DNA of 64,000 nucleotides from Chrysoperla carnea. Its lineage: Eukaryota; Arthropoda; Insecta; Neuroptera; Chrysopidae. The number at the start of each line of letters is the position of its first letter. The first letter of the stretch is position 1. The DNA lies in assembly GCF_905475395.1 (NCBI RefSeq), contig NC_058340.1:76796181-76860180 (forward strand). The letters are read 5' to 3'. The notes below the pieces were generated by a model. That model was not told the DNA's origin and did not search any database. It was given only the letters and a program-made list of their open reading frames with translations. Made by a program: the position numbers and the translations under genes. This document shows positions 2,980-54,349 of the stretch, one piece after another.

Positions 2980-5034
2980 AAAGTTCCATGAACTTGGAAC
3001 AACCAAAGTTGCACAACCAGGTAAACAATACGGGGTTAATTAGTACTCGATTATTACTAATTAATTACCCAAAAATTGAATTTTTTACTCCATTTTTTTT
3101 AAAAATTAACACTAGTTGTGCTGGCTTCCACCGAAAGCTAGCACAACAGCTTCAAAAAACTTCGTATTGGTACAAAAAATTAAAAACTCATTTATTACTA
3201 ATTTATTACCATAAATTTTAATTTATTACTAATTAATTACCGAAAAATTGAATTGATTACTCCATTTAAAAAAAAATTAACACTAGTTGTGCTGGCTTCC
3301 ACCGAAAGCTAGCACAACAGCTTCAAAAAACTTCGTATTGGCATAAAAAATTAGAACTCATTTATTCGATACTAATTTATTACCATAAATTTTAATTTAT
3401 TACTTGTAAAATTCTATAGTAATTAAAAATTGTCCAAGTTTTCTCGTGAACCTGTAACAACAAGTTTTTTTAAAAATGGAGTAATTAATTCAATTTTTCG
3501 GTAATTAATTAGTAATAAATTAAAATTTTTGGTAATAAATTAGTAATAAATGAGTTCTAATTTTTTATACCAATACGAAGTTTTTTGAAGCTGTTGTGCT
3601 AACTTTCTGTCGAAGCCAGCACAACTAGTATTAATTTTTTTTAAATGGAGTTATAAATTCAATTTTTCGGTAATTAATTAGTAATAAATTAAAATTTATG
3701 GTAATAAATTAGTAATAAATGAGTTTTTAATTGTTTGTACTAATACGTAGTTTTTTGAAGCTATTGTGCTCAGGGTTCGAGGATATATATCAATGGATAT
3801 ATATCATGATATATATCCGATATATATCCGATATATATCACGTGAATTTTTATGATATATATCAATACAAAAATGATTTAAAATAATTTAATATTATTTA
3901 GTAATTTTTGGCGATTGTTACCGTATTTCTACTTCCTCCATTTTGATGGCATTAGAGTAGAGTTAAAACCTACTAATACTAAGCTCAAATCGTGTCGTGT
4001 CAGAAAAAGTTCGTTACTAAAGAGTAAGTTTAAGTAAGATTCAGAATTGGAAGATGATCTAGCTTTATCTTCCTTGCAGTCAAACCAAGCACAATTATGA
4101 AACGACATTTTTTTAATTTTTTATGGGATAATTAACAGTTTATTACGAATGACTGATGACTGATTTGATAATTAAAAGACTGATTACACTCTAGAGTTAT
4201 TATTTGTAATGTTTATTGTTTTGTTGCCTAAGTGCAGGTACGGCCATTGACTGATAACAATTTATAAAATTGTTTTTTGTTTTAAAGTTGATTTTTATTT
4301 ATAAAAATTTTATTATTTTTAATTGCTTTTGCCTGATTTAGAAGAATATTTTATGTTTTGGTTTCATTTTTCTGATTTGAAGTGTCTAAGTAAGTAAAAC
4401 CTTTAAAACATTTTAGTTTTTTTTAAATATCAAAATTTGGATATATATCGGATATATATCGGATATATATCAAAATATCCGATATTTTGATATTTATAAT
4501 AAATATCGGATATTTTCGAACCCTGAATTTTGTGCTAGCTTTCGATGGAAGCCAGCACAACTAGTGTTAATTTTTTTTTAAATGGAGTAATCAATTCAAT
4601 TTTTCGGTAATTAATTAGTAATAAATTAAAATTTATGGTAATAAATTAGTAATAAATGAGTTTTTAATTTTTTGTACCAATACGAAGTTTTTTGAAGCTG
4701 TTGTGCTAGCTTTCGGTGGAAGCCAGCACAACTAGTGTTAATTTTTTTTTAAATGGAGTAATCAATTCAATTTTTCGGTAATTAATTAGTAATAAATTAA
4801 AATTTATGGTAATAAATTAGTAATAAATGAGTTTTTAATTTTTTGTACCAATACGAAGTTTTTTGAAGCTGTTGTGCTAGCTTTCGGTGGAAGCCAGCAC
4901 AACTAGTGTTAATTTTACAAAAAATGGAGTAATAAATTCAATTTTTGGGTAATTAATTAGTAATAATCGAGTACTAATTAGCCCCGTATTGTTTACCTGG
5001 TTGTGCAACTTTGGCTGTTCCAGGTTCATGGAAC
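2980..5034. mobile_element. Inverted-repeat (foldback) element in the BEL-1 5' LTR
   Basis: The ends are inverted copies over about 50 bp: gttccatgaacttggaacaa at 2983 against a reverse complement ending gttcatggaac at 5034. The left flank tgatattt (2972-2979) is repeated at 5035-5042, an 8-bp target duplication; the uninterrupted 3' LTR at ~10881-10900 is a related empty site. The interior is made of ~135-bp subrepeats carrying the palindrome-like cactagttgtgctggcttcc ... gaagctagcacaac, in opposite orientation in the two halves. No protein is encoded. The small ORF at 2988-3221 is repeat sequence. Confidence 0.8.
3771..4525. mobile_element. hAT-like non-autonomous element nested in the foldback element
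   Basis: The termini are CAGGGTTCGA at 3771 and TCGAACCCTG ending at 4525, a typical hAT-style end. The flanks attgtgct (3763-3770) and tttgtgct (4528-4535) look like an imperfect 8-bp duplication; uninterrupted subrepeats nearby (e.g. 4690-4710) read ttgtgctagctttcg and act as empty sites. Subterminal ggatatatatc palindromes occur at both ends. No transposase ORF. Confidence 0.75.
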
Positions 5035-16845: not shown

Positions 16846-18624
16846 AGTGGTTTACACAATTACGTAAATATGACGTCAAAATGATGTCATGCAATGTCAT
16901 AATTACGTAAGATATGAGTCATAGATCAGTCAGGTTTGAGTCATTATTTCCGCCCCCCTGACGTAAGATTTTTCCGTAAAAATGACGTAAGCATGACGTA
17001 AACGTGGCGTTAAATTGACATCTATATGACCTAATTGACATAATAATGATCTAAAAATGATATCACAGTGACGTCACGTTTGAGTCACAGATGAGTCATT
17101 ATTTCCGCCTTCCTGACGTAAGATTTTTACGTAAAAATGACGTAAGCATGACGTAAACGTGACGTTAAATTGACATATATATGACCTAATTGACATTATA
17201 ATGATCTAACAATGATATCACAGTGACGTCACGTTTATGTCAAATATCTGACTTAAGGTAGTACCAGCATGAAATCACTTTTCGACAGATTTGGCCGAAT
17301 TTTTTTTCTCGGGTTTATAATAGCTTTATTTATGAATTCCTAAAATTTCATAATTGTTGACCGTTTAGATCGCGAGATATTTAAAGACAAAGTTCGCGAT
17401 TTTGAGGGTCATGTCCCATTTAAAGCATGTAAAATGTCCGGTCTCTCCAACTATTTTTTATGATATTATTATATATTGAAGAAAAAGTAGAAAAAAATGT
17501 TTATACATTAATATTCTAAAAAAAAAATTTAGAAATTAATTTTCACTTTCGAGATATTAACTTTGACGTAAATTGATCGAAATTGGGACGTTGGCATAAT
17601 TATTTCCCATTTTAAACGGTCAAAATTTCTGAAACTTTGGGAATTAATAGTAAGCATTATTAAATTCTTAAATTTAATTTTTCGTTAAATTCTGTCGAAA
17701 AAAAAATTGTACCATTGCTTTAACATAGAAACTGCAAATATCATGCTGGTAATACCTTAAATATGATTTATCCTTACGTAAGGTTTACATAATTCTTACG
17801 TTATTATATGTCACGATATTGTAATTAAAATGACCTGGAAATGATGTCAAATACCTTCCTATAATATGACTTTTCTTTACGTAAAGTTTACCTAATTTTT
17901 CCGTTGCTCGATGTCACGAGATTAAACTGGCATCGATATGTAATGAATTGATCTATTTATTCGATATTCGATCTGTTAGACGATAATAATAAAAATTTAT
18001 ATATTGAATCAGAATAATGTACTTACTCATTGAGGGTTTGATCTTAGCTGTACAGCCGAGAAATCAAAACAATACCTACCTGTTGGTGAGGAACATGGTT
18101 ATATACCCTAAATTACATAAAACTAACTCCGCGAATAATACACAAATTTCTAACTAGTAGAAAGAAGCAGTGATATTCTAGTTGAAATGGGCATATATAT
18201 ACACAAGAGTATAAGTAAGTTTCTGAGATAAGAATGTGATTCCCACATTACGTAAATAATACGTAAATTTATGACTTTGATATGACCGTACAATATGACT
18301 AAAATATGGCATCAGTTTTACGTAACAATATGACCTGTTTCTAAGGTAAGAATATGATTCACATATTACGTAAATATTACGTAAACTTATGACTTTGATA
18401 TCACCGTACAATATGACTAAATAATGACATCAGTTTTACGTAACATTAAAGTCATAAAAATGACATCATAAAAAATCACATTTAATGTCAGTATGACATA
18501 ATAGTGAGGTCATTCAATATGACATCATATTAACATCATAAATTGAGTCACCATTATGTCATGTTTACGTAAAATATGACGTATGACCTATGATCTTTTT
18601 ATGACCTATGTATGACGTCATATT
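16846..18624. mobile_element. CRE-TIR element, copy A (left part; right end at 23095-23118)
   Basis: Same body as copies B and C. It is a succession of ATGACGTAA, TGACGTCA, TTACGTAA, TGAGTCA and ATGACATCA motifs with longer tandem subrepeats (e.g. 16961-17225 contains the cgtaagatttttacgtaaaaatgac block twice). The left end (agtggtttacac, ~16846) is a diverged form of CCCAGTGAACAC. The right end is displaced by the gypsy insertion and reappears at 23095-23118 (ggtcatgtgttcactgg). A TTAA-flanked MITE interrupts it at 17257-17756. No protein is encoded. Confidence 0.75.
17257..17756. mobile_element. TTAA-flanked MITE (piggyBac-type target) in CRE-TIR copy A
   Basis: 500 bp with termini GGTAGTACCAGCATGA and TCATGCTGGTAATACC. 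TTAA occurs on both sides (17253-17256, 17757-17760). Copies B (27255-27275) and C (52741-52760) read caaatatctgacttaaatat or similar without the insert, so they are empty sites. A TTAA duplication is the signature of piggyBac-type transposition; the TIR is not the canonical piggyBac sequence. Confidence 0.85.
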
Positions 18625-18749
18625 TGTGTAGACGAACACATTTTGGTGGGAATTATTATTAGTTATGATGAGTGAATAAATGCATAACATAGTAGAAAAC
18701 CTGTGTGTGATTATTAAAATAAAATCCTATCATTCAACAAACTATAACA
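18625..18749 (+). repeat. gypsy 5' LTR
   Basis: TGTGTAGACGAACAC ... AACTATAACA; contains two AATAAA signals (tgaataaatg; taaaataaaatcc). Unusually short for gypsy. It lacks the 50 bp that precede the matching sequence in the 3' region. Confidence 0.85.
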
Positions 18750-18766
18750 TGGCGCTGCTTAGCAGG
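18750..18766 (+). promoter_or_regulatory. gypsy primer-binding site (candidate)
   Basis: tggcgctgcttagcagg follows the LTR directly and starts TGGCGC, as gypsy PBSs commonly do. I did not assign the primer tRNA. Confidence 0.5.
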
Positions 18767-18871
18767 TTTAATTAAATTAAATAAACAAATTATACAAATA
18801 AATAATAAATAATTTAAATAAATAAAAGTGATAAATAAACTTTTACAAAAAAAAAAAATTAATAAAACAAA

Positions 18872-20563
18872 ATGACTGAAGAATTAACAGCCATTAAATT
18901 ACCGACAGGAATGTGCATGCAAGGTGATTTGAGTGTTAACTTCAAAAAATTTAAACAAAGATTCACAATTTATATGAAAGCTTCGGGTTTAGAAAAGAAA
19001 AAAAGTGGTGAACAAAAAGTGGCAATTTTGTTACATACAATTGGAGAACAAGCGCAAGAAGTGTTTGAAACGTTAGAGCTCGAAGATGAAACGAAAAATG
19101 ATTGGGAAAAAGTGTTAGAAGCATTTCAAAAACATTTCGTACCACAGTCAAATGAAACGGTAAATAGACACATGTTTAATATTAGGCAACAAAAAACAGG
19201 TGAAACGATTGATTCGTTCATAACGGATTTAAAATTATTAGCACAAAATTGCAATTTCGAAAATCTTAAAGATAGTTTGATAAGAGATAGGATTGTGTGT
19301 GGAATTAATGACAACAAATTAAGAGATCGTTTATTAAGAGAACCTAAATTAACTTTAAATCAATGCATACAAATATGCAAGGCTTCAGAAATTGCAGAAG
19401 CTCAAAATAAACAAATTAAAGATGAGGTAAAAGTATACGAAATTAAACAAAATAATACGCTTAAAAAATCACAAGGTGATAAAACAAAATATAAAAATAC
19501 TAAATTAAATTATCAATCAAACAATTATAATAAATCGTCCATTACAAACTGCACCAGGTGTGGAAAAAATCACGAAATTAATAAATGTCCAGCGTACAAA
19601 CAACAATGCAAAGCATGTTTGGCGTATAATCATTTTGCTACAATGTGCAAAAATAAAACGAAAAAACAAGTTCATGCAATTGAGGAAAAAGAAGAATTTT
19701 TTATTTCAACAGTGTCAAAAAATGAAACAAAAAAACTAAACGAAAAAGAATGGATTCAGGCGGTAGGCATTAATGGTCAAATGGTGAATTGTAAAGTGGA
19801 TACTGGTGCCGAAGTAAATGTAATTGGTAAAAATACAGCTCTAAAATTAAAAATTAAAATGGAACCTTCAAAAATAAAACTAAAGAACTATAATGGAAGT
19901 CAAATTGAAGTAATCGGGCAAGCAAGTTTGTTATGCAAAATAAAAAATAAAAGTAAAAAGGAAATATTTCAAATCGTTGATCATGAAGCACTCAGTGTAA
20001 TCGGATTACCATTTATTCAAAATTTTAATTTACTTAAGAGAGTAATGGAAATTTCAACACAAAAAGAAAACAATTTAAAGGAAATAATGGAAAAATATAA
20101 ACAGTTATTTTCGGATATTGGTAGTCTTAAAGGATACAAATATAAAATTAAATTAAAAAAAGACTGTGTGCCAGTAGCAGAGGCTCCAAGAAAAATACCT
20201 ATAGGAATTGAGCAACAAGTAAAACAAGAATTAGACAAAATGGAGCAGTTAGGTATAATTAAAAAAGTTCAACAACCAACAGAATGGGTTAGTCAAATGG
20301 TAGTAGTGAAGAAACCAAATAATCAAATACGAATTTGTCTCGATCCACAGAAATTAAATGAGGCAATAATAAGGGAAAGGTATCAACTACCAAATTTAGA
20401 AGAAATAACAGCAAGATTGGCAGGAGCAAAAGTGTTTACAAAATTGGATGCAAATAAAGGATTTTACCATGTTGAATTGGAGAAAGAAAGTCAACTACTT
20501 ACTACTTTCCATGCAGGAAAATACGGCAGATATTGTTATTTAGTACTTCCTTTTCCAATATAA
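18872..20563 (+). CDS. gypsy gag-protease-RT ORF (truncated by frameshift)
   Basis: 563 codons from ATG at 18872 in one frame. Residues ~10-190 are the capsid-like gag region. Residues ~227-259 are two Cys/His knuckles (CTRCGKNHEINKCP; CKACLAYNHFATMC). The protease motif VDTGAEVNVIG is at ~309-319. RT begins ~400, with VVVKKPNNQIRICLDPQKLN and the first catalytic Asp in TKLDANKGFYHVEL. The frame fails at LPFPI, where a small deletion with a shift removes the part of RT just before the FIDDIL box. The three minus-strand ORFs in this span are shadows. Confidence 0.85.
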   Translation: MTEELTAIKLPTGMCMQGDLSVNFKKFKQRFTIYMKASGLEKKKSGEQKVAILLHTIGEQAQEVFETLELEDETKNDWEKVLEAFQKHFVPQSNETVNRHMFNIRQQKTGETIDSFITDLKLLAQNCNFENLKDSLIRDRIVCGINDNKLRDRLLREPKLTLNQCIQICKASEIAEAQNKQIKDEVKVYEIKQNNTLKKSQGDKTKYKNTKLNYQSNNYNKSSITNCTRCGKNHEINKCPAYKQQCKACLAYNHFATMCKNKTKKQVHAIEEKEEFFISTVSKNETKKLNEKEWIQAVGINGQMVNCKVDTGAEVNVIGKNTALKLKIKMEPSKIKLKNYNGSQIEVIGQASLLCKIKNKSKKEIFQIVDHEALSVIGLPFIQNFNLLKRVMEISTQKENNLKEIMEKYKQLFSDIGSLKGYKYKIKLKKDCVPVAEAPRKIPIGIEQQVKQELDKMEQLGIIKKVQQPTEWVSQMVVVKKPNNQIRICLDPQKLNEAIIRERYQLPNLEEITARLAGAKVFTKLDANKGFYHVELEKESQLLTTFHAGKYGRYCYLVLPFPI

Positions 20564-21998
20564 TTTTCAAGATGTTTTTAAAGGTCTGGAAGGAGTAACG
20601 ATTTTCATTGACGACATTCTGGTGTTTGGTAAAGACAAAGAAGAACATAGGGTAAGATTGAATAACGTTTTAAAACGGGCTGAAGAATTTAATATTAAGT
20701 TTAACAAAGACAAATGTAAATTCGAATTAAATGAAGTAAAGTATTTAGGTCATATTTTTAGTGATCAGGGTTTAAAAGTAGATCCAGAGAAAGTAAATGC
20801 AATTTTAGAAATTAAAGAACCAAAATCAAAGAAAGAGTTAGAAACAATATTAGGAATAGTTACGTATGTAAGTAAATTTTTACCAAATGTTTCTACAGTA
20901 ACTGATCCGTTAAGACAGTTGTTAAAAAAAGAAAACGAATTTGTTTTTTATAAATCACATAAAGAGGCATTTGCAAAATTAAAAAAATTATTAACTGAAG
21001 TTCCGGTTTTACAATATTTTGATGTCAATAAAGAAATCACATTGTCTGTTGATTGTAGTAGCTACGGGGCCGGTGCTGTACTCCTACAGAATAACCTGCC
21101 AGTAGCTTATGCTTCAAAAGCATTAACAAACAGTCAAAAAACTTGGGCTCAAATAGAAAAAGAACTGTTGGCAATTGTATTAGGGTGTGAGAGATTTCAT
21201 CATTTTATCTATGGGAGGACCATAAAAGTAGAAACCGACCACAAGCCATTAGAATACATTTTCAAAAAATCAATAAATGAAACTCCACTTAGGCTACAAA
21301 AATTACGTTTAAGGTTACAAATTTATGATATAATAGTACAATACAAAAGGGGTAAAGACTTATTAATAGCTGACGCTCTTTCACGTTTTCCAAACGAGAA
21401 TATAAATAACTTAGAATGTAACATAGAAAGGGAGGTAGAAGCTCATGTCAATTTGATTACAGATAATTTACCAATCTCAAAGGATAAATTAAAATTATTT
21501 CAAAATGAAACAGAAAAAGATGTAGAATTAAACAAAATTATATATTATGTTAGAAACGGGTGGCCTAATAAAGAAAAATTAGATAGTCAGTTAAAATTTT
21601 ATTATTCAATTAAAGATGAACTTTTTTACGCAAATAAATTATTGTTTAAAAATCAAGCGGTAATAGTACCAAATTCATTAAGAAAAGATATGCTTAATTT
21701 AGTGCACTATAATCATTCAGGGGCAGAAAAATGCAAAATCAAAGCTAGAAAAGTTTTATTTTGGCCTTATATGTGTAAACAAATTGATGATGTAATACAA
21801 AATTGTAATACATGTTGTAAATTTGCAAAAACTCATCAGCAAGAAAGTTTAATGCTGAGAGAAATACCAGAAGGTCCTTGGCAAGTTTTAGGAGTAGATA
21901 TTTTTTATTTTAAACAAAAACCATATGTTTTAATTGTTGATTACTTTAGTAAATTCATTGAACTAAAGGATTACAAGATGAATCAACTGAAAATTTGA
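20564..21998 (+). CDS. gypsy RT palm, RNase H and integrase N-terminus
   Basis: Reads in the next frame. FQDVFKGLEGVTIFIDDILV with the catalytic DD occurs at ~20568-20625, upstream of the first listed start (GTG, 20622). RT thumb motifs follow (KCKFELNEVKYLGHIFSDQG), then RNase H (ITLSVDCSSYGAGAVLLQ; YASKALTNSQKTWAQIEKEL; VETDHKPLEYIF). The integrase HHCC finger (HYNHSGAEKCKIKARKVLFW ... CNTCC) and first core Asp (LGVDIFYF) come last. It ends at a single-base frame loss at ~21970. Confidence 0.85.
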
Positions 21999-22774
21999 TA
22001 GGCATACTTAAATGTAATTTTGCAAGATATGGAATACCTTATAAATTATTCAGTGACAATGGACCTCAATTTAATAATTATAAATTTATAGAATTTGTCA
22101 AAAGCTGGGGATTTGTTCATACCACCAGCAGTCCAACATATCCAAAATCTAATGGAATGGTGGAAAGGTATATACAAACATTTAAACAATTAATAAAGAA
22201 ATGCGAAAATAGTGGGAGAGATCCTAATCTTGCACTAATGGAGTATCGCAATACTCCAATAGGAGGTGGAATTAACAAATCACCCTGTGAATTAATGTTT
22301 GGTCGAAATATCAATGCTCTTTTTCCAACAAGTGAAACGTTTAGGCCAAAAGTATATAAAGAAAAAAATGATCTTGAGAAAAGACAATTAAAGTATAAAC
22401 AACAATATGATAAAAAACATAATTACAAACCGCAAAAATTTAAATTAAATGAAATTGTGTATGTAAAAAATATGAATGATGGTTCGAAAACTTTAGCTAA
22501 AATTTTAAGAAAAGCAAATAGGCCTAGAAGTTTTATTTTGGAAATGAGCAATGGTAGAATAGTTAGCAGAAACAGGCATCATTTATATAAAGCTCCGAAA
22601 AACATTGAATTTAATTCTAAGTTTAAAATAAATCAAAAAGATAATGAATCCAAGTCGGTAAAAAAGAAAACAAATGATCCAAGTACAGAGGACGAAAGTA
22701 ATTTAATAAACAGAACCAGATTAGGGAGAAAAATCAATAAGCCAGAATATTTAAAAGAATTTGTTGAATCCTAA
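21999..22774 (+). CDS. gypsy integrase catalytic core and C-terminus
   Basis: 258 codons in the third frame. The second Asp lies in KLFSDNGPQF and the Glu in SNGMVERYIQTFK, with correct spacing for a D,D-35-E core. The tail is basic and Lys/Asn rich, containing NEIVYVKNM, a typical GPY-like position. The stop at 22772 is ~145 bp before the purine tract. Apart from the two shifts the pol product would be complete. Confidence 0.85.
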
Positions 22775-22909
22775 AATCATGAGTTTGAATTTTGTGTATC
22801 ATGATTTTGAATTTTGTACTTTTAATTATAATTTAATTTTGTATCTAGTGTTTTGAATATGTACTTAATTTTATAAATATGTAATAAAATAATTTTGTAA
22901 TTAAATATA

Positions 22910-22919
22910 AAAAGGGAGA
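22910..22919 (+). promoter_or_regulatory. gypsy polypurine tract (candidate)
   Basis: aaaaagggaga precedes TGTAAGGTTGG at 22920. This is the best-looking PPT/LTR junction, but it lies 50 bp upstream of the point where sequence shared with the 5' LTR starts (22970, preceded by gtaagaga). Confidence 0.5.
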
Positions 22920-22969
22920 TGTAAGGTTGGTCACACTGTTGATAAAGTGGTTGGCCATACCGTAAGAGA

Positions 22970-23094
22970 TGTGTAGACGAACACATTTTGGTGGGAATTA
23001 TTATTAGTTATGATGAGTGAATAAATGCATAACATAGTAGAAAACCTGTGTGTGATTATTAAAATAAAATCCTATCATTCAACAAACTATAACA
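22970..23094 (+). repeat. gypsy 3' LTR (portion identical to 5' LTR)
   Basis: Identical to 18625-18749 by base-by-base reading, followed by the atatt target duplication. Confidence 0.85.
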
Positions 23095-23118
23095 ATATTA
23101 AGGTCATGTGTTCACTGG
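23095..23118. mobile_element. CRE-TIR copy A, right terminus
   Basis: atattaaggtcatgtgttcactgg: the last bases of the CRE-TIR body and its right inverted repeat, matching 54037-54059 of copy C. Confidence 0.75.
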
Positions 23119-27044: not shown

Positions 27045-27944
27045 CCCAGTGAGCGCAATGACGTAAATATGACGTCATAATTTACGTAAGATATGAGTCA
27101 CAGGTTTGAGTCATTATTTCCGCCTTCCTGGCGTAAGATTTTTACGTAATATAAATGACGTAAACATGACGTAAAATTGACATCTATATGACCTAATTGA
27201 CATTATAATGATCCATCAATGATATCACAGTGACGTCACGTTTATGTCAAATATCTGACTTAAATATGACTTATCCTTAGGTAAGGTTTACATAATTCTT
27301 ACGTTATTATATGTCACGATATTGTAGTTAAAATGACCTGGAAATTTTTTCCCATGCTCGATGTCACGAGATTAAAATGGCATCGATATGTAATCAATTG
27401 ATCTATTCATTCCTGTTAGACAATAACAAAAGTTTGTATATTGAAGCAGAATGATGTATTTACTCATTGGTTTGATCTAAGCTGTACAGCTGCAGCCGAG
27501 AAACCAAATCAACCTACCTGCTGGTGAGGAACATGATTATATACCCTAAATTAGATGAAACTAACTCCGCGAGTAATACACAAATTATAACTAGTAGAAA
27601 GAAGCTGTGATATTCTAGTTGAGATGGGAATATATATACACAAGAGTATAAGTAAGTTTCTGAGGTAAGAATATTTTTCACATATTACGTAAATATTACG
27701 TAACCTTATGACTTTGATATGACGTCACAATGTGACTAAAATATGATATCAGTTTTACGTAACATTAAAGTCATAAAAATGACATCATATCTAAATCATA
27801 TTTAATGTCAGTATGACATAATAGTGAGGTCATTCAATATGACATCATATTAACATCATAAGTTGAGTCAACATTATGTCATGTTTACGTAAAATATGAC
27901 GTATGACCTATGATCTTTTTATGGCCACTGTATGACGTCATATT
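27045..27944. mobile_element. CRE-TIR element, copy B
   Basis: Left TIR CCCAGTGAGCGC at 27045, then the same ordered body as copy C but with internal subrepeats missing (about 900 bp against 1528 bp). It includes tgacgtcacgtttatgtcaa, the gatattgtagttaaaatgac region, tagtagaaagaagctgtgat and a final atgacgtcatatt. The right TIR is absent; a different sequence (aaaatcaagtatataaag) follows. Confidence 0.8.
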
Positions 27945-27953
27945 AAAATCAAG

Positions 27954-27990
27954 TATATAAAGTTTTTCGAAAAAATGAAATCCATCAGTT
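27954..27990 (+). promoter_or_regulatory. Putative core promoter: TATA box and TCAGTT initiator
   Basis: TATATAAAG at 27954-27962, and TCAGTT at 27985-27990. The distance from TATAAA to the initiator A is 31 bp, the arthropod optimum. It lies directly after the motif-dense end of CRE-TIR copy B. Seen in sequence; function is inference. Confidence 0.4.
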
Positions 27991-47381: not shown

Positions 47382-48061
47382 AGTTTTATTCAAATATAAT
47401 TATGTCTATTTATTTTTACTCATAGTATTCGTGACTCCAAGAAACTATTATAGGTAACACTTAAATGGGAATTGAAAAACATATTTCAAAATGATACTTT
47501 TTGTATATTATTTAAAACTTAAAACATTCCAGAGGAGGGAAATAATCCAGAGGGAGAATAGGCAAGTTTCAAGTTTCGAGAAGATATTGATTTAATATAC
47601 TGTAGGTGTCACATAAGAAAGGATTTTTTGAAATTCATCCCCTAAAAGGGTGAAATAGGGGATGAAAGTTTGTATGAAAATATATATATACAGTCAATTT
47701 TGAGTTCACTACTTAACCGATTTTATAAATTCTTTCACCTATAGAAAGCTATATTATTAGCAAGTAACATGAGCTATATTTTATTTTCAAAAAATTTAAG
47801 GTTCCGCACTGTTGTGTACTAATCAAATATATTTATTGAACCAAAATATGCCTGAGTACATTGGTATTAATTAGTAAATAACCAATTCATAGATATCAAA
47901 TTCATAAACTTATAAAATGAAAGAGGCAAATCATAGATATATAACACGCACCACAAAAAAAAATCCATTAAATAGCGAAACCGACATTTTTGAGTTTGAC
48001 TACGTAACCGATTTTAAGAATTAATTCATCTATAGAATATTACATTATCAGCAAGTAACAT

Positions 48062-51000
48062 TAGGCCAGTCATAAAGAACATTAATATTTGCAAGAAAAC
48101 GTCTAGTTCTGTATTTTAATATGTTGTTGGGACCACTATCAGTAGCATCTATCCAACGTTGCAGCTTCGAAAAACCTGTGCTAACTTTGCAGTACTTGAA
48201 AAACCTCGAAATTTTTGCCCTTTTTTTGTTTTCTCAATATAAGTCCAAAACTATGCGTTTTTTTCAAGTTTTTTAAATAAAAATGCTACAATTTGAGACC
48301 AAAATCAGCTCTGTACCTTCAATACTCACCGAGATATAGCTCTCTGAAAATCGGCAATTTTTTCGAACAAAGTGAAATTTTAATACTTAGTCTATTTTCG
48401 ACTTTGATATCGGGGAAAATATTCATTTTATGGATAAAATCGTAACAAAAAATGTTATTGCCAATTTAATTAGCTTTAATTTAAGCATAGAACGATGTCT
48501 TGAGGCCATATAGTTCACTCACAAATCTTAAAAAACTAAAAAAGAAGAAAATGGCATTTTTTCCCAATTTGCTCGGTTTAGTTCTCAAAATGGTTTGAAG
48601 GTACTTTGAAAGGATAAATCATTTACATCCACAATATATCGGATGCTAATCGCAAAATAACTTGGCCAATCGGTAATAGATGTGTTGTGGGACACTCGGT
48701 AGAAACTATGTTTCTTTCGTTTTTATTATTTATTTTTAAAATTTTCGTTTATCAAGTTCGGAAAATAGACATTTCCTTATTAAAAACTCAATAATCAGAA
48801 GTTATTAGAAGTTTAGTTCTTACTATGGTTTGAAGGTAGTTTGAAAGGATGTGAATTGTATACACAAGAAATATATGTTTCAAAAGAATATTTAAGACAT
48901 TACAAGGACATTTTTATTACAAACGATTATTTTTATACAAAGTATTCGACATCGTCTTCTCTTTCGCTTTCAATTTGAAGCTCGACGACGTTATTGCACG
49001 AGACACCGAAGCAATATTTGCAGAGTGCCGAGTGCCGAGCCCTGCTTTTATGCAGGTGCAACTGCCTCCTCTACAGCCTTTCTTGCACCCTCATGATAAA
49101 AATTTCAGAAGGGAAGGGGGTGCACTGAGTAGCATCTTTTTCCACCCCAAACCACTTCTGAACTTGGTGGTATATTCTGTAAACGTGCAATGTTGCACTA
49201 TCTTCCGTTGGGGGCAAACGGGCGAGGTCAACCTTAGCAAAGGCAGCTGTTCTTAAAAATTTTTTGAAGCGCAGGCTGTTGAGAGTATCTTGGGTGTAGT
49301 CACCTCCATACAATGCTACTAGACACTTTGCTCCGGCATCTTCAATGGTTTGGTAAGTTGCATTAGGTCAGAGGAACACTTCAGCTGTGGTGATGAGTTG
49401 ACCGTTTTCCTGAATTGCACTCCACAGTTTATTCTTCCATGCCAGAAAAGGGCAGAGGGAGTGTCGCACCCAGTGAAAGCGTGGAGAAACAGCTCGAATC
49501 CTTGGGAGATTTTTAAATCTCCACGATTAAATGAATTTGAGGAATATTGTAAGGGGCCAGAGTCACCTCCTCCACTTTTCGGGAAATAAACATTCTTCAC
49601 AGCTGAAATTTCGAGCCGATCCCAAACCATTGAGAAGGACAAGGAGATCCACACCCTGTCCAATGATTAGCACTGATTTAGAAGAGGTGCTCTTCTCAAG
49701 TGCCAACTTGACAATATCGCAGTCAGCATCCTCAAAAGCCTGCTTTGTCTCAATTCCCTAGCTTCGGAAGGCCGAGTAAATCAGTCGTCGCTTGTTGCAG
49801 TCGTTAGCTAATAACTTCTCCTGGGTCATTTTTATTATGGTTTACTCGTCAAAGACGACTTCGTTACACTGTAAAGAGCCATAGCGCCTTATGCGTTCGG
49901 CTGTTTTTGTGTTCCGCAACATTCCGTCCAAAATGACTGTTGGTGTAGCTGACATATTCTGGGACGGTATTCTTCACAGAGGTGTTACGATGCCACATCA
50001 CCGTGTGCAGTAAGTAACCATCTACCACAATAAACGTGTCGGCTCCTACTGAAATATTTTGAGGTAGTGTAGTGAAAGCTGAGTAGAACGTTGATTTTTT
50101 TCCCTTGTGCATACCTTCTTTTGTGAACAGTGCTGTGGGGTACGGAGAGAATTCATACTTGAAATGTTCCTTCAATTCTTTGTGTGATATCTTAATTATA
50201 CAACACAAACGCTGGAATATTGCTAGTGGCTCCATATCCACACGTTTGTCTCTCACTTTGATGGAAGTGCCCATTGATGCCAAGATATGCAATTTGTCTT
50301 TTCTTTTAATGAAACATTTCCAAAAGATTTGCCTGTAATTTGTTTGGCACCTTCTATTCCCATTTTTCTAGCCATGTGGCAATTAATCTCGGGGGCTCCA
50401 ACTACTGATGAATAACAGTTTATTTGTCACAGGAAATGGAGGGTAGATATCAAAGTAGTGCTTCACTTTCTCGACATCACTTGTGTCTCATTCAATCCGT
50501 GCTGCCCTCACATCAACATATTGTTCACTGGTGGTACACGAAATGTCCCAAAATGTCTCCACGCTCTCGATAATATTGAGCATAAACACCATACCTCCAG
50601 TACATCGTGAAAGAACGCTACTTGATATCCCCCGACCATGGGTCAATCCTCCCTGACTTTTCATTGACCTCATTAACACTTGTTCTATGGTTAAATCTGG
50701 CCATAGCCCAGACCAAAATTTTTCTGAGCGGCGAATCGTAAAGCCTCCTTTATTGAACATGCTCCATTCATTAGCACTAGCACTAGCCTAGCACTTTTTG
50801 CGTAAAAAAGTGCCCTGATGAATGGAAAAAAGGTTGCATTTTCCCACCTGTCGTTAGATGTAACGCCCGATCTCCCATTCTTTCCGCTTCAATGAATTGC
50901 TTCATTAGTGCGGTCATACTGCACCCAGGCTTTTGAAGTTGGTCCATTTGATTCAAGTTTATCCAGGCCTCTTTTAAATTTGGCACTATAAATTTGAAAA

Positions 51001-52102
51001 ATGTCATAGTCTTTGATGAGTAGAATTGATGACCTGTGACTTTCATTGAGGATGCTATCCGTTTCAGTTTGTTCTTCGTACGTGAACTGAACGTCAGCAG
51101 TCAAAATCAGGTGAGTAAGTGCTAAATTGGTGAGCATGTCAGCTCGTACAGCCCTAGAATACGCGTGGCCACTAAGAATCTTATCAACACTATTTTCGAC
51201 GTATATGGTGGAGAGGAATTAAGGAGAGGCTAGACCAAAAAATCGTAACAACTTTTTGTGTAATAAATATATATCATCGCTATGGAAACAAAATAAAGGG
51301 TAACAAAAAAATGAAAACCTATATAAAAATAATTAGGTAATTGATTCTGATCTTTGGTAACTTCTGATTATTAATTTTTTAATAAGGAAATGTTTTCAGA
51401 ACGTGATAAACGAAAAATTAAAAAAAAATCACCCACAACACATCTATTACCGATTAGACAAGTTATTTTGCGATTAGCATCCGGTATATTGTGGATGTAT
51501 ATGATTTATCCTTTCAAAGTACCTTCAAACCATTTTGAGAACTAAACCGAGCAAATTGGGAAAAAATGCAATTTTCTTCTTTTTTAGTTTTTTAAGATTT
51601 GTGAGTGAACTATATGGCCTCAAGACATCGTTCTATGCTTAAATTAAAGCTAATTAAATTGGCAATAACATTTTTTGTTACGATTTTATCCATAAAATGA
51701 GTATTTTCCCCGATATCAAAGTCGAAAATAGACTAAGTATTAAAATTTCACTTTGTTCGAAAAAATTGCCGATTTTCAGAGAGCTATATCTCGGTGAGTA
51801 TTGAAGGTACAGAGCTGATTTTGGTTTCAAATTGTAGCAATTTTTTTTTTTTTTTTTTTTTTTTTTCAAAACTTGTAGAAGATATCTTCTAAAAAAAACG
51901 CATAGTTTTGGACTTATATTGAGAAAACCAAAAAAAAAAAAAATTTCGAGGTTTTTCGAGTACTGCAAAGTTAGCACAGGTTTTTCGAAGCTCCAAACTT
52001 GGATAGATGCTACTGATAGTGGTCCCAACAACATATTAAAAATGCAGATGTAGACGTTTTCTTGCAAATATAGTGATTTTTATGTCAAATATGACTGGCC
52101 TA
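48062..52102 (-). mobile_element. 4.0-kb DNA transposon with ~745-bp terminal inverted repeats
   Basis: Termini taggccagtcat (48062) and atgactggccta (to 52102). Arms 48062-48810 and 51358-52102 are inverted copies (gggaccactatcagtagcat; caatttaattagctttaatt; cggatgctaatcgcaaaata). The 2.5-kb interior carries a decayed minus-strand protein (next entry). Long TIRs plus a coding interior indicate a former autonomous element. The target duplication is unclear. Confidence 0.8.
49071..51137 (-). pseudogene. Decayed large repeat-encoded protein of the long-TIR transposon
   Basis: Fragments in N- to C-terminal order: 51137-50783 (MLTNLALTHLILTADVQFTY; VQYDRTNEAIH; FIEAERMGDRALHLTTGGKM), 50760-50488 (FTIRRSEKFWSGLWPDLTIE, EQVLMRSMKSQGGLTHGRGI), 50292-49864 (AFTTLPQNISVGADTFIVVD), 49663-49319 (ELFLHAFTGCDTPSALFWHG), 49313-49071. 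Several frame breaks and stops separate them. The motif set W-x-D-x-x-I-E-Q-x-L-M-R, GGLTxGRG and HAxTGCDTxSA is one I associate with a widespread family of large, multi-copy metazoan proteins that includes a PIN-like nuclease region. That assignment is from memory and not checked. No complete product is possible. Plus-strand ORFs here (48975, 49350, 49531, 50105) are shadows. Confidence 0.55.
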
Positions 52103-52532
52103 CATGGCCGTATTTTCTTTTCAAAATTATTAGAGATTCCCACTAAAAGTACAATCAATTAAATAATGAACAAAAAGGAAGTTAAAAGTATTGAAGGCTA
52201 TAACGTAGATAACTTTTAGTTATTTATATTGTACAAAAAATTTTTTGTGCAATTTATGTAAATAATTCACTCTTGCGTGATTTTTTTCCACTAAAAAATG
52301 TATTTTGACTTAATAACAATAAAAATGAATTTTTGCTTTCGGTGTCGAGCCCTAACTTTTTTGAAAATAAAATACAGCCCATGTTACTTTCTGATAATGA
52401 AGCAATGAAAATTTTTAAAATCGGTTGAGTAGAGAACTGAAAAATGTAGATTTTTATATATTTTCATACAAAATTTTATCCTTTATTTCACCCTTTAAGA
52501 ATTAAAAAGAATTTCGAAAAATCTTTTCTTAT

Positions 52533-54060
52533 CCCAGTGAACAAAATTACGTCATAATTACGTAAGATATGAGTCAGGTTTTAGTCATTATTTAAGCCTT
52601 CCTGACGTAAGATTTTTACGTAAAAATAACGTAAGCATGACGTAAACGTGACGTAAAATTGACATCTATATGACTTAATTGACATTATAATGATCTAACA
52701 ATGATATCACAGTGATGCCACGTTTATGTCAAATATCTGACTTAGATATGATTTATCCTTACGTAAGATTTACATAATTCTTACGTTATTATATGTCACG
52801 ATATTGTAATAAAAATGACATAACAATGATATCACAGTGATGTCACGTTTATGTCAAATATCTGACTTAAATATGATTTATTCTTACGTAAGATTTACAT
52901 AATTCTTACGTTATTATATGTCACGATATTGTAATAAAAATGACCTAACAATGATATCACAGTGATGTCACGTTTATGTCAAATATCTGACTTAAACATG
53001 ATTTATTCTTACGTAAGGTTTACATAATTCTTACGTTATTATATGTCATGACATTGTAATTAAAATGACCTGGAAATGATGTCAAATATCTTCCTATAAC
53101 ATGATTTTTTTTTCGTAAAGTTTACCTAATTTTTCCTTTGCTCGATGTCACGAGATTAAAATGTCATCGATATGTAATGAATTGATCTCTTCATTCCTGT
53201 TAGACAATAATAACAATTTATATATTGAATCAGAATGATGTATTTACATGGTATTTACTCATTGTGCGTTTGATCTTAGCTTAGATCTAAATTACATAAA
53301 ACTAACTCCGCGAATAATACACAAAGTTATAACTAGTAGAAAGAAGCAGCGATATCTTAGTTGAGATAGGCATATATATACACAAGAGTATAAGTATGTT
53401 TCTGAGGGAAGAATGTGATTATCACATTACGTAAATAATACGTAAACTTATGACTTCGATATGACCGTACAATGTGACTAAAATATGACATCAGTTTCAC
53501 GTAACAGTATGACCTGTTTCAGAGGTAAGAATATGATTCATATATTACGTAAATATTACGTAAACTCATGACTTTGATATGACGTCAATATGTGACTAAA
53601 ATATGACATCGGTTTTACGTAACAGTATGACCTGTTTCTGAGGTAAAAATATGATTAACATATTACGTAAATATTACGTAAACTTATGACTTTGATATGA
53701 CGTCAATATGTGACTAAAATATGACATCAGTTTTACGTAACAGTATGACCTGTTTCTGAGGTAAAAATATGATTAACATATTACGTAAATATTACGTAAA
53801 CTTATGACTTGGATATGACGTCACAATGTGATTAAAATATGACATCAGTTTTACGTAACATTAAAGTCATAAAAATGTCATCATATCAAAATCACATTTA
53901 ATGTCAGTATGACATAATAGTGAGGTCATTCAATATGACATCATATTAACATCATAAATTGAGTCATCATTATGTCATGTTTACGTAAAATATGACGTAT
54001 GACCTATGATCTTTTTATGACCTATGTATGACGTCATATTAAGGTCATGTGTTCACTGGG
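52533..54060. mobile_element. CRE-TIR element, copy C (complete)
   Basis: 1528 bp with CCCAGTGAACA at the left and TGTTCACTGGG-type right end (gtgttcactggg to 54060). Flanked by AT on both sides (52531-52532, 54061-54062); the left arm of the enclosing inverted repeat (47600-47625) gives the empty site. The body has about three tandem ~127-bp units (52690-53060) and about four ~120-bp units (53400-53860). I count ~16 TTACGTAA, 4 TGACGTCA and 2 TGAGTCA sites. No ORF. Confidence 0.85.
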
Positions 54061-54349
54061 ATGTGACACCTACAGTATAAAATCAATATCTTCTCGAAAT
54101 TTGAAACTTCTATCATTAGCGATTCAGTTTGGGCGTCGCTATATCACTCGTGATATTGCCTATTCCCCCTCCAGATTAAATATTCCTCATTTTAAATAAT
54201 ATACAAAAAGAATCATTTTGAAAAAAAAAAATCATCAAAATCGGAGCTGTTATTGAGGAGTCCCTAAGAATGCCTATTTTATAAATTCCTTTATCCGATA
54301 TTTAATCGAGGAAATGAAACCAAAAAAACCATCTAACTGAGTATTCTCT

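Follow-up and report, generated by a model that had tools for sequence, protein, structure and literature searches.

A probable non-autonomous transposon of the TRC type in Chrysoperla carnea with subterminal arrays of CRE-like palindromes

Introduction

Within the window (the whole 64-kb stretch of DNA analysed here, G000:C4:76796181-76860180), a segment of 1,528 bp at positions 52533-54060 of the + strand, called copy C below, contains 16 copies of TTACGTAA and four of TGACGTCA, palindromes that match CRE and PAR-type bZIP sites exactly. Do such sites recruit bZIP factors of the host, are they a by-product of tandem copying, or do they serve the element that carries them? An earlier note on this DNA had counted about 16 and four of these motifs, exactly the numbers found here, and had described copy C as a mobile element with terminal inverted repeats, each insertion of which might be a ready-made enhancer or decoy for bZIP factors; its fallback was that the palindromes are expanded transposase-binding subrepeats. 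The analysis below leads us to regard copy C as very probably a non-autonomous derivative of a TRC (CMC group) transposon, with palindromes that most likely act as docking sites for an element-encoded protein.

Results

Structure and insertion of copy C

Copy C is a complete non-autonomous TRC/CACTA-related element, delimited by its termini, a 2-bp target-site duplication and empty sites. Its left terminal inverted repeat is CCCAGTGAAC (52533-52542, + strand) and its right one is GTTCACTGGG (54051-54060, + strand), and these are flanked by AT duplications at 52531-52532 and 54061-54062. Between them lie, all on the + strand, a left subterminal block of sites resembling TKACGTMA, in which base autocorrelation peaks at lag 11 (52543-52688; below), a tandem array of about three 125-bp units with palindromes in each (52689-53071), a tandem array of about four 118-bp units, each made of about two 59-bp halves (53397-53860), and a right subterminal block whose sites are mostly degenerate (53861-54050). 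The joined flanks of copy C correspond to uninterrupted DNA at three paralogous places, with 75 to 80% identity. One is in the other arm of the inverted repeat that hosts copy C, where the earlier note had already seen an empty site (47564-47804, − strand), and the others are two further loci, L024 and L021. Since these empty sites are uninterrupted, and the one in the window crosses the junction with a single AT, copy C inserted as a unit. The inverted repeat itself is large (window 47564-54110), with inner arms at 48275-48691 and 51432-51848 that are 98% complementary, and copy C lies in its right arm, towards the outside, where divergence is greater.

Three copies with common ends had been proposed in the window; copy C has both ends complete, but copies A and B are damaged. 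Copy A is split by two other elements: its left part (16854-18624, + strand) has a terminus without the first 8 bp and is broken at 17257-17756, and its right end lies at 23095-23118 (+ strand), where the terminus reads ...CACTGG and is followed by A. The element at 17257-17756 is 500 bp long, with ends GGTAGTACCAGCATGA.../...TCATGCTGGTAATACC and TTAA duplications at 17253-17256 and 17757-17760; the other is an LTR retrotransposon (18625-23094) with ATATT duplications and LTRs that are identical over the 123 bp compared. Copy B (27045-27954, + strand) has the left terminus CCCAGTGAGC and lacks the right one.

Copies across the genome

A search of the genome (559 Mb, 337 contigs) with copy C gave at least 73 matching pieces, which merged at 6 kb into at least 35 loci (40 of 98 candidates were scored), and the right terminus at up to three mismatches occurs 50 times compared with four for the reversed control. 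Nine of the loci are clustered within 0.45 Mb near the end of contig C4 (G000:C4:76.40-76.85 Mb). Target duplications were examined in the ten non-coding copies, from 20 loci and the window, that have both exact ends. Nine of them have a duplication of at least 2 bp: seven of 2 bp (AT in copy C and L010, AA in L012, TT in L017a, L019 and L027, and TA in L017b), one of 3 bp (TTA in L009) and one of 4 bp (ATAT in L018); L020 has none. Termini beginning with CCC are present in 10 of 10 non-coding copies and in four of four longer elements (below), in a sample picked by searching for such ends, and single copies deviate at their termini, as does the left end CTCAGTGAAC at C6:7412688. The description of a mobile element that moves as a unit is supported by these duplications, by the empty sites and by longer relatives that carry coding sequence between ends of the same class. 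A frequent match, CCCAATAAACTCAATTACGT, was excluded from the family: in L049 (C1:48134150-48135250), the sole copy checked, it is internal to an almost perfect palindrome of about 1 kb, an element that has CCCACCAAAAAC at its ends and perhaps an AT duplication. This inner sequence is very frequent in the genome.

Longer relatives and their transposase

Pairing of left and right termini identified three longer relatives, L029, L030 and L048, and a search with the right end of L030 identified a fourth, L047; all four have the same class of ends (CCC) and 2-bp duplications. L030 (8,854 bp, duplication TT) has one open transposase frame of 684 aa, and L048 (6,266 bp, CA) has transposase pieces in several frames. 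L029 (3,970 bp, TA) and L047 (4,333 bp, AG) are internal-deletion derivatives that have lost the transposase region through deletions with different breakpoints. Gaps aside, the parts they share with L030 have one mismatch in 3,981 aligned positions for L029 and two in 4,345 for L047, a near-identity that points to very recent movement. L048 is older than these three, and is about 25% diverged from L030. The L029 element is flanked by two open frames, 1-345 (115 codons) and 4297-4599 (101 codons), as though it had landed within coding sequence.

The earlier note had suggested a search for an autonomous relative that shares the ends. L030 has an open transposase frame and the same class of ends; no intact coding copy of copy C's own subfamily was found in the genome search. 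At C5:65903771-65904908 there are degenerate transposase pieces and, 0.9 kb on, copy-C-type 118-bp repeats at 90% identity, in a locus without a right terminus. A related family, L033/L034 (C3:25.43 Mb and C3:57.15 Mb), starts with CCCAGACAGCACGC (CCCAG), and its two members, 100% identical over at least 3,841 bp, have apparently also moved very recently. TKACGTMA is absent from L033/L034 over the 3.84 kb compared, a span with the right end outside it; the motif appears to be family-specific.

The L030 transposase fits the D, D, C2C, H3H, E order of the CMC/CMCT group; in the published CMCT order, D, D, C2C, H3-4H, E, the C(2)C and H(3-4)H pairs both follow the second catalytic D and precede the last E (PMC12730594, excerpt). 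D210, D288, C307/C310, H503/H507 and E527 of L030 are invariant in comparison with L033, and form a putative, pattern-assigned catalytic signature. The two D are 78 residues apart in L030 and 80 in DeMarco et al. (PMC1636069, excerpt); by eye, motif I of that paper has one residue fewer before F in L030, and motif A is one residue off its pattern in each protein (LDYQHLICLG in L030, IEYMHLVCLG in L033). With L030 alone, Pfam gave Transposase_21 (PF02992) at 22 bits and DUF4218 at 18.1 bits, both below their cut-offs (28.6 and 27, respectively); the scan of L033 gave no family, and a PDB sequence search with the L030 transposase gave nothing at E up to 1. The probable tie of L030 to PF02992 rests on an indirect link through two genomic proteins above the cut-off of that family (C2:63244084-63245355 and C3:8757606-8758907), to each of which the L030 transposase is 31% identical over about 400 aa, and which overlap two of the three places in the genome that pass the PF02992 cut-off. 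At least 68 transposase pieces related to L030 are present in the genome (65 of 99 candidates were scored). A structure model of the L030 transposase from a two-sequence alignment was unusable (pLDDT 30.9, pTM 0.27), and the literature search returned no paper on Transposase_21 with DUF4218 in insects.

A second gene

L030 has a second gene, on the opposite strand to the transposase and oriented away from it, with GT-AG introns; its 346-aa protein, assembled with splice sites and a last exon picked by eye, scores 39.6 bits against DUF4806, above the cut-off of 25. A genome search for this domain gave at least two other places, and missed the L030 gene itself, in which the domain is split by an intron. 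One of these, C6:18732901-18733104, is 588 bp from a transposase piece at C6:18733692 in a convergent arrangement, unlike that of L030, and for the other the closest of the listed transposase pieces is 17 kb away. L029 and L047 retain the first exons of the gene and, judging by the deletion coordinates, appear to have lost its end. A partial literature search outside Repbase showed no report of a transposon-encoded DUF4806 protein.

Number, placement and spacing of the palindromes

In 500 dinucleotide shuffles of copy C the means were 0.11 for TTACGTAA and 0.06 for TGACGTCA, and none of the 500 reached the observed numbers; copies A and B are also enriched for motifs by such shuffles. The predicted enrichment therefore holds for these two palindromes, but not clearly for the AP-1-like TGAGTCA, of which copy C has two sites, a number reached in 23 of 500 shuffles. 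Short tandem-unit expansion, which the earlier note had named as a possible refutation, does not alone account for the excess: when the 125-bp and 118-bp arrays are each cut to one unit, 13 TKACGTMA remain in 924 bp compared with 0.10 expected (300 shuffles), and so the motif enrichment in copy C is more than tandem copying.

In the longer elements the palindromes mark both subterminal blocks and are rare in the interiors of 7.7 kb (L030) and 5.4 kb (L048). The left 500 bp of L030 hold four TKACGTMA and 19 sites at up to one mismatch, and the right 650 bp hold nine and 21 (0.10 and 1.4 to 1.6 are expected in each block); its middle 7,704 bp hold two and 15 (0.46 and 12.3 expected). The corresponding values for L048 are seven and 24 on the left, four and 11 on the right, and none and six between. 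Base autocorrelation, calculated for lags 5 to 49 against first-order Markov resamples, has its top lag at 11 in all six blocks (left and right of copy C, L030 and L048; z 3.7 to 9.4), compared with 15 in an L030 coding stretch (z 2.8) and 25 in the L033 left block (z 4.0). Gaps between neighbouring sites are exactly 11 bp in 27 of 84 cases (4.1 by random placement) and differ by at most 1 bp from a multiple of 11 or 12 in 67 of 84 (38.7 by random placement), values that none of 5000 placements reached. In a periodicity test of the site positions, four blocks give a strong signal and two a weak one, which 94 and 200 of 2000 nulls reach. Eleven bases are about one helical turn, so that sites next to each other would point to almost the same face of the helix; the 11-bp spacing could come from an old tandem duplication.

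Between subfamilies the sites are better conserved than the spacers at the left end (the difference was reached by 26 and by one of 329 shifts) but not at the right end (75 and 123 of 339 shifts). Among the ten non-coding copies the consensus match at the right end is 0.961 for sites and 0.968 for spacers, and at the left end 0.947 and 0.930 (17 of 339 shifts reach this difference); among copies, the palindromes seem to decay about as fast as the spacers.

Discussion

The copy-C family is a new family of an already known type, because TRC elements with CCC termini and duplications of 2 bp have already been described in animals (DeMarco et al. 2006, PMC1636069, excerpt). The TRC element of Aedes aegypti (GenBank AAGE02020512; PMC1636069, excerpt) has a 10-bp terminus, CCCAGTCAAC, that is the same as the L048 left end and one base from CCCAGTGAAC and CCCAGTAAAC, and it likewise has a 2-bp duplication and a similar length (9.2 kb compared with 8.85 kb for L030); it encodes a Transposase_21-type protein. 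Compared by description only, it differs in that the excerpt describes no subterminal palindromes, DUF4806 gene or miniatures. Spongebob_HMa (EnSpm-4N1_HM) of Hydra shares the CCC start (CCCAGCCAACATTGAC), the 2-bp duplication and the TRC assignment, but its termini differ beyond the first bases and the excerpt mentions no bZIP-like arrays; Spongebob is present in Hydra and insects, with non-coding derivatives in several animals (PMC4298943, excerpt). The plant CACTA elements Spm/En and Tgmt* have a tnp2-type transposase and deletion derivatives that keep the ends, as here, and a second protein of the element is reported to bind family-specific subterminal repeats in Spm/En and other plant CACTA elements; they differ in their CACTA ends and 3-bp duplication (Tgmt*), and their second protein is not described as DUF4806 (PMC2613891, excerpt). 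With CCC ends and a 2-bp duplication the copy-C family is not of this plant type (Spm/En); other CACTA members, with CAC ends, also make 2-bp duplications (PMC6004678, excerpt). ATon elements, which end in ATAGGCC in the description available, were set aside.

Duplications of 2 bp are also made by other superfamilies, such as ISL2EU and Tc1/mariner, and the A/T-rich 2-bp duplications in many copies would suit them; that copy C belongs to such a superfamily is nevertheless extremely improbable, as AG and CA occur among the duplications, the transposase of a longer relative is of CMC type and the CCC ends agree with those of published TRC elements. ISL2EU and mariner were dropped once the transposase was found. 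We also think it improbable that host bZIP factors (CREB/ATF, PAR, AP-1) are recruited by the element, whether to transcribe it or to make enhancers or decoys of its copies, and that the element is kept for that purpose. The exact CRE and PAR-type matches far above chance speak for such a role, as does the location of sites on either side of the longer element's genes, where they would be available to a promoter, but the sites fill both subterminal blocks, many with one mismatch, on a regular lattice; in the ten non-coding copies they are kept no better than spacers on the right and only slightly better on the left, and they are missing from L033/L034 in the 3.84 kb compared. The ready-made enhancer or decoy of the earlier note thus left no sign in the DNA, where the motifs sit as CACTA-type subterminal repeats do and seem not clearly better kept than spacers; the literature search, as far as its sources extended, gave nothing relevant on CREB or bZIP factors with MITEs.

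The arrays might instead be a by-product of tandem growth, microsatellite-like and without binding function, as the 11-, 59-, 118- and 125-bp tandem structure of copy C and the lack of clear conservation of the right-end sites would allow. We consider this unlikely: L030 and L048 are about 25% diverged and have the same type of site with the same lag at each end, the sites are rare in their 7.7- and 5.4-kb interiors, and the enrichment survives collapse of the arrays. Expanded transposase-binding subrepeats, the fallback of the earlier note, remain the best-supported reading, and the subterminal position recurs in the longer elements.

We therefore return to docking by an element-encoded protein, proposed because the sites are subterminal and the motif seems family-specific, as in plant CACTA elements; by this analogy such a protein most likely binds the palindromes. 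A DDE-type transposase supplied by coding relatives elsewhere in the genome would cut at the CCC...GGG ends, and insertion by it would leave the 2-bp duplication. The subterminal palindromes (TKACGTMA and its one-mismatch variants), mostly 11 bp apart, would dock a DNA-binding protein that gathers and marks both ends of the element; the candidates are the transposase and the DUF4806 protein of the second gene, the latter in a role like that of TNPA of maize Spm. The array in non-coding copies may then have swelled as subterminal units of 11, 59, 118 and 125 bp multiplied in tandem.

A broader and more speculative idea, to which we give a modest chance, is that animal TRC transposons have DUF4806 proteins as the partners that bind their ends, and that in the present family this partner (or the transposase) has come to recognise palindromes with an ACGT core, identical in sequence to CREB/PAR sites, on an 11-bp lattice. 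Both the lattice of ACGT palindromes and the DUF4806 partner are possibly new; a literature search covering few subscription journals, and its sources in part, returned no report of either. An uncharacterised domain, DUF4806, is now tied to a transposon, and if the broader idea is true, host bZIP factors may compete with the element's protein for these sites throughout the genome. This one genome contains, side by side, an open transposase frame, deletion derivatives that are nearly identical and older miniatures, which makes it possible to test what subterminal repeats do in animal CACTA-type elements. Clusters of perfect CRE/PAR motifs can be the end-binding arrays of transposons and not enhancers.
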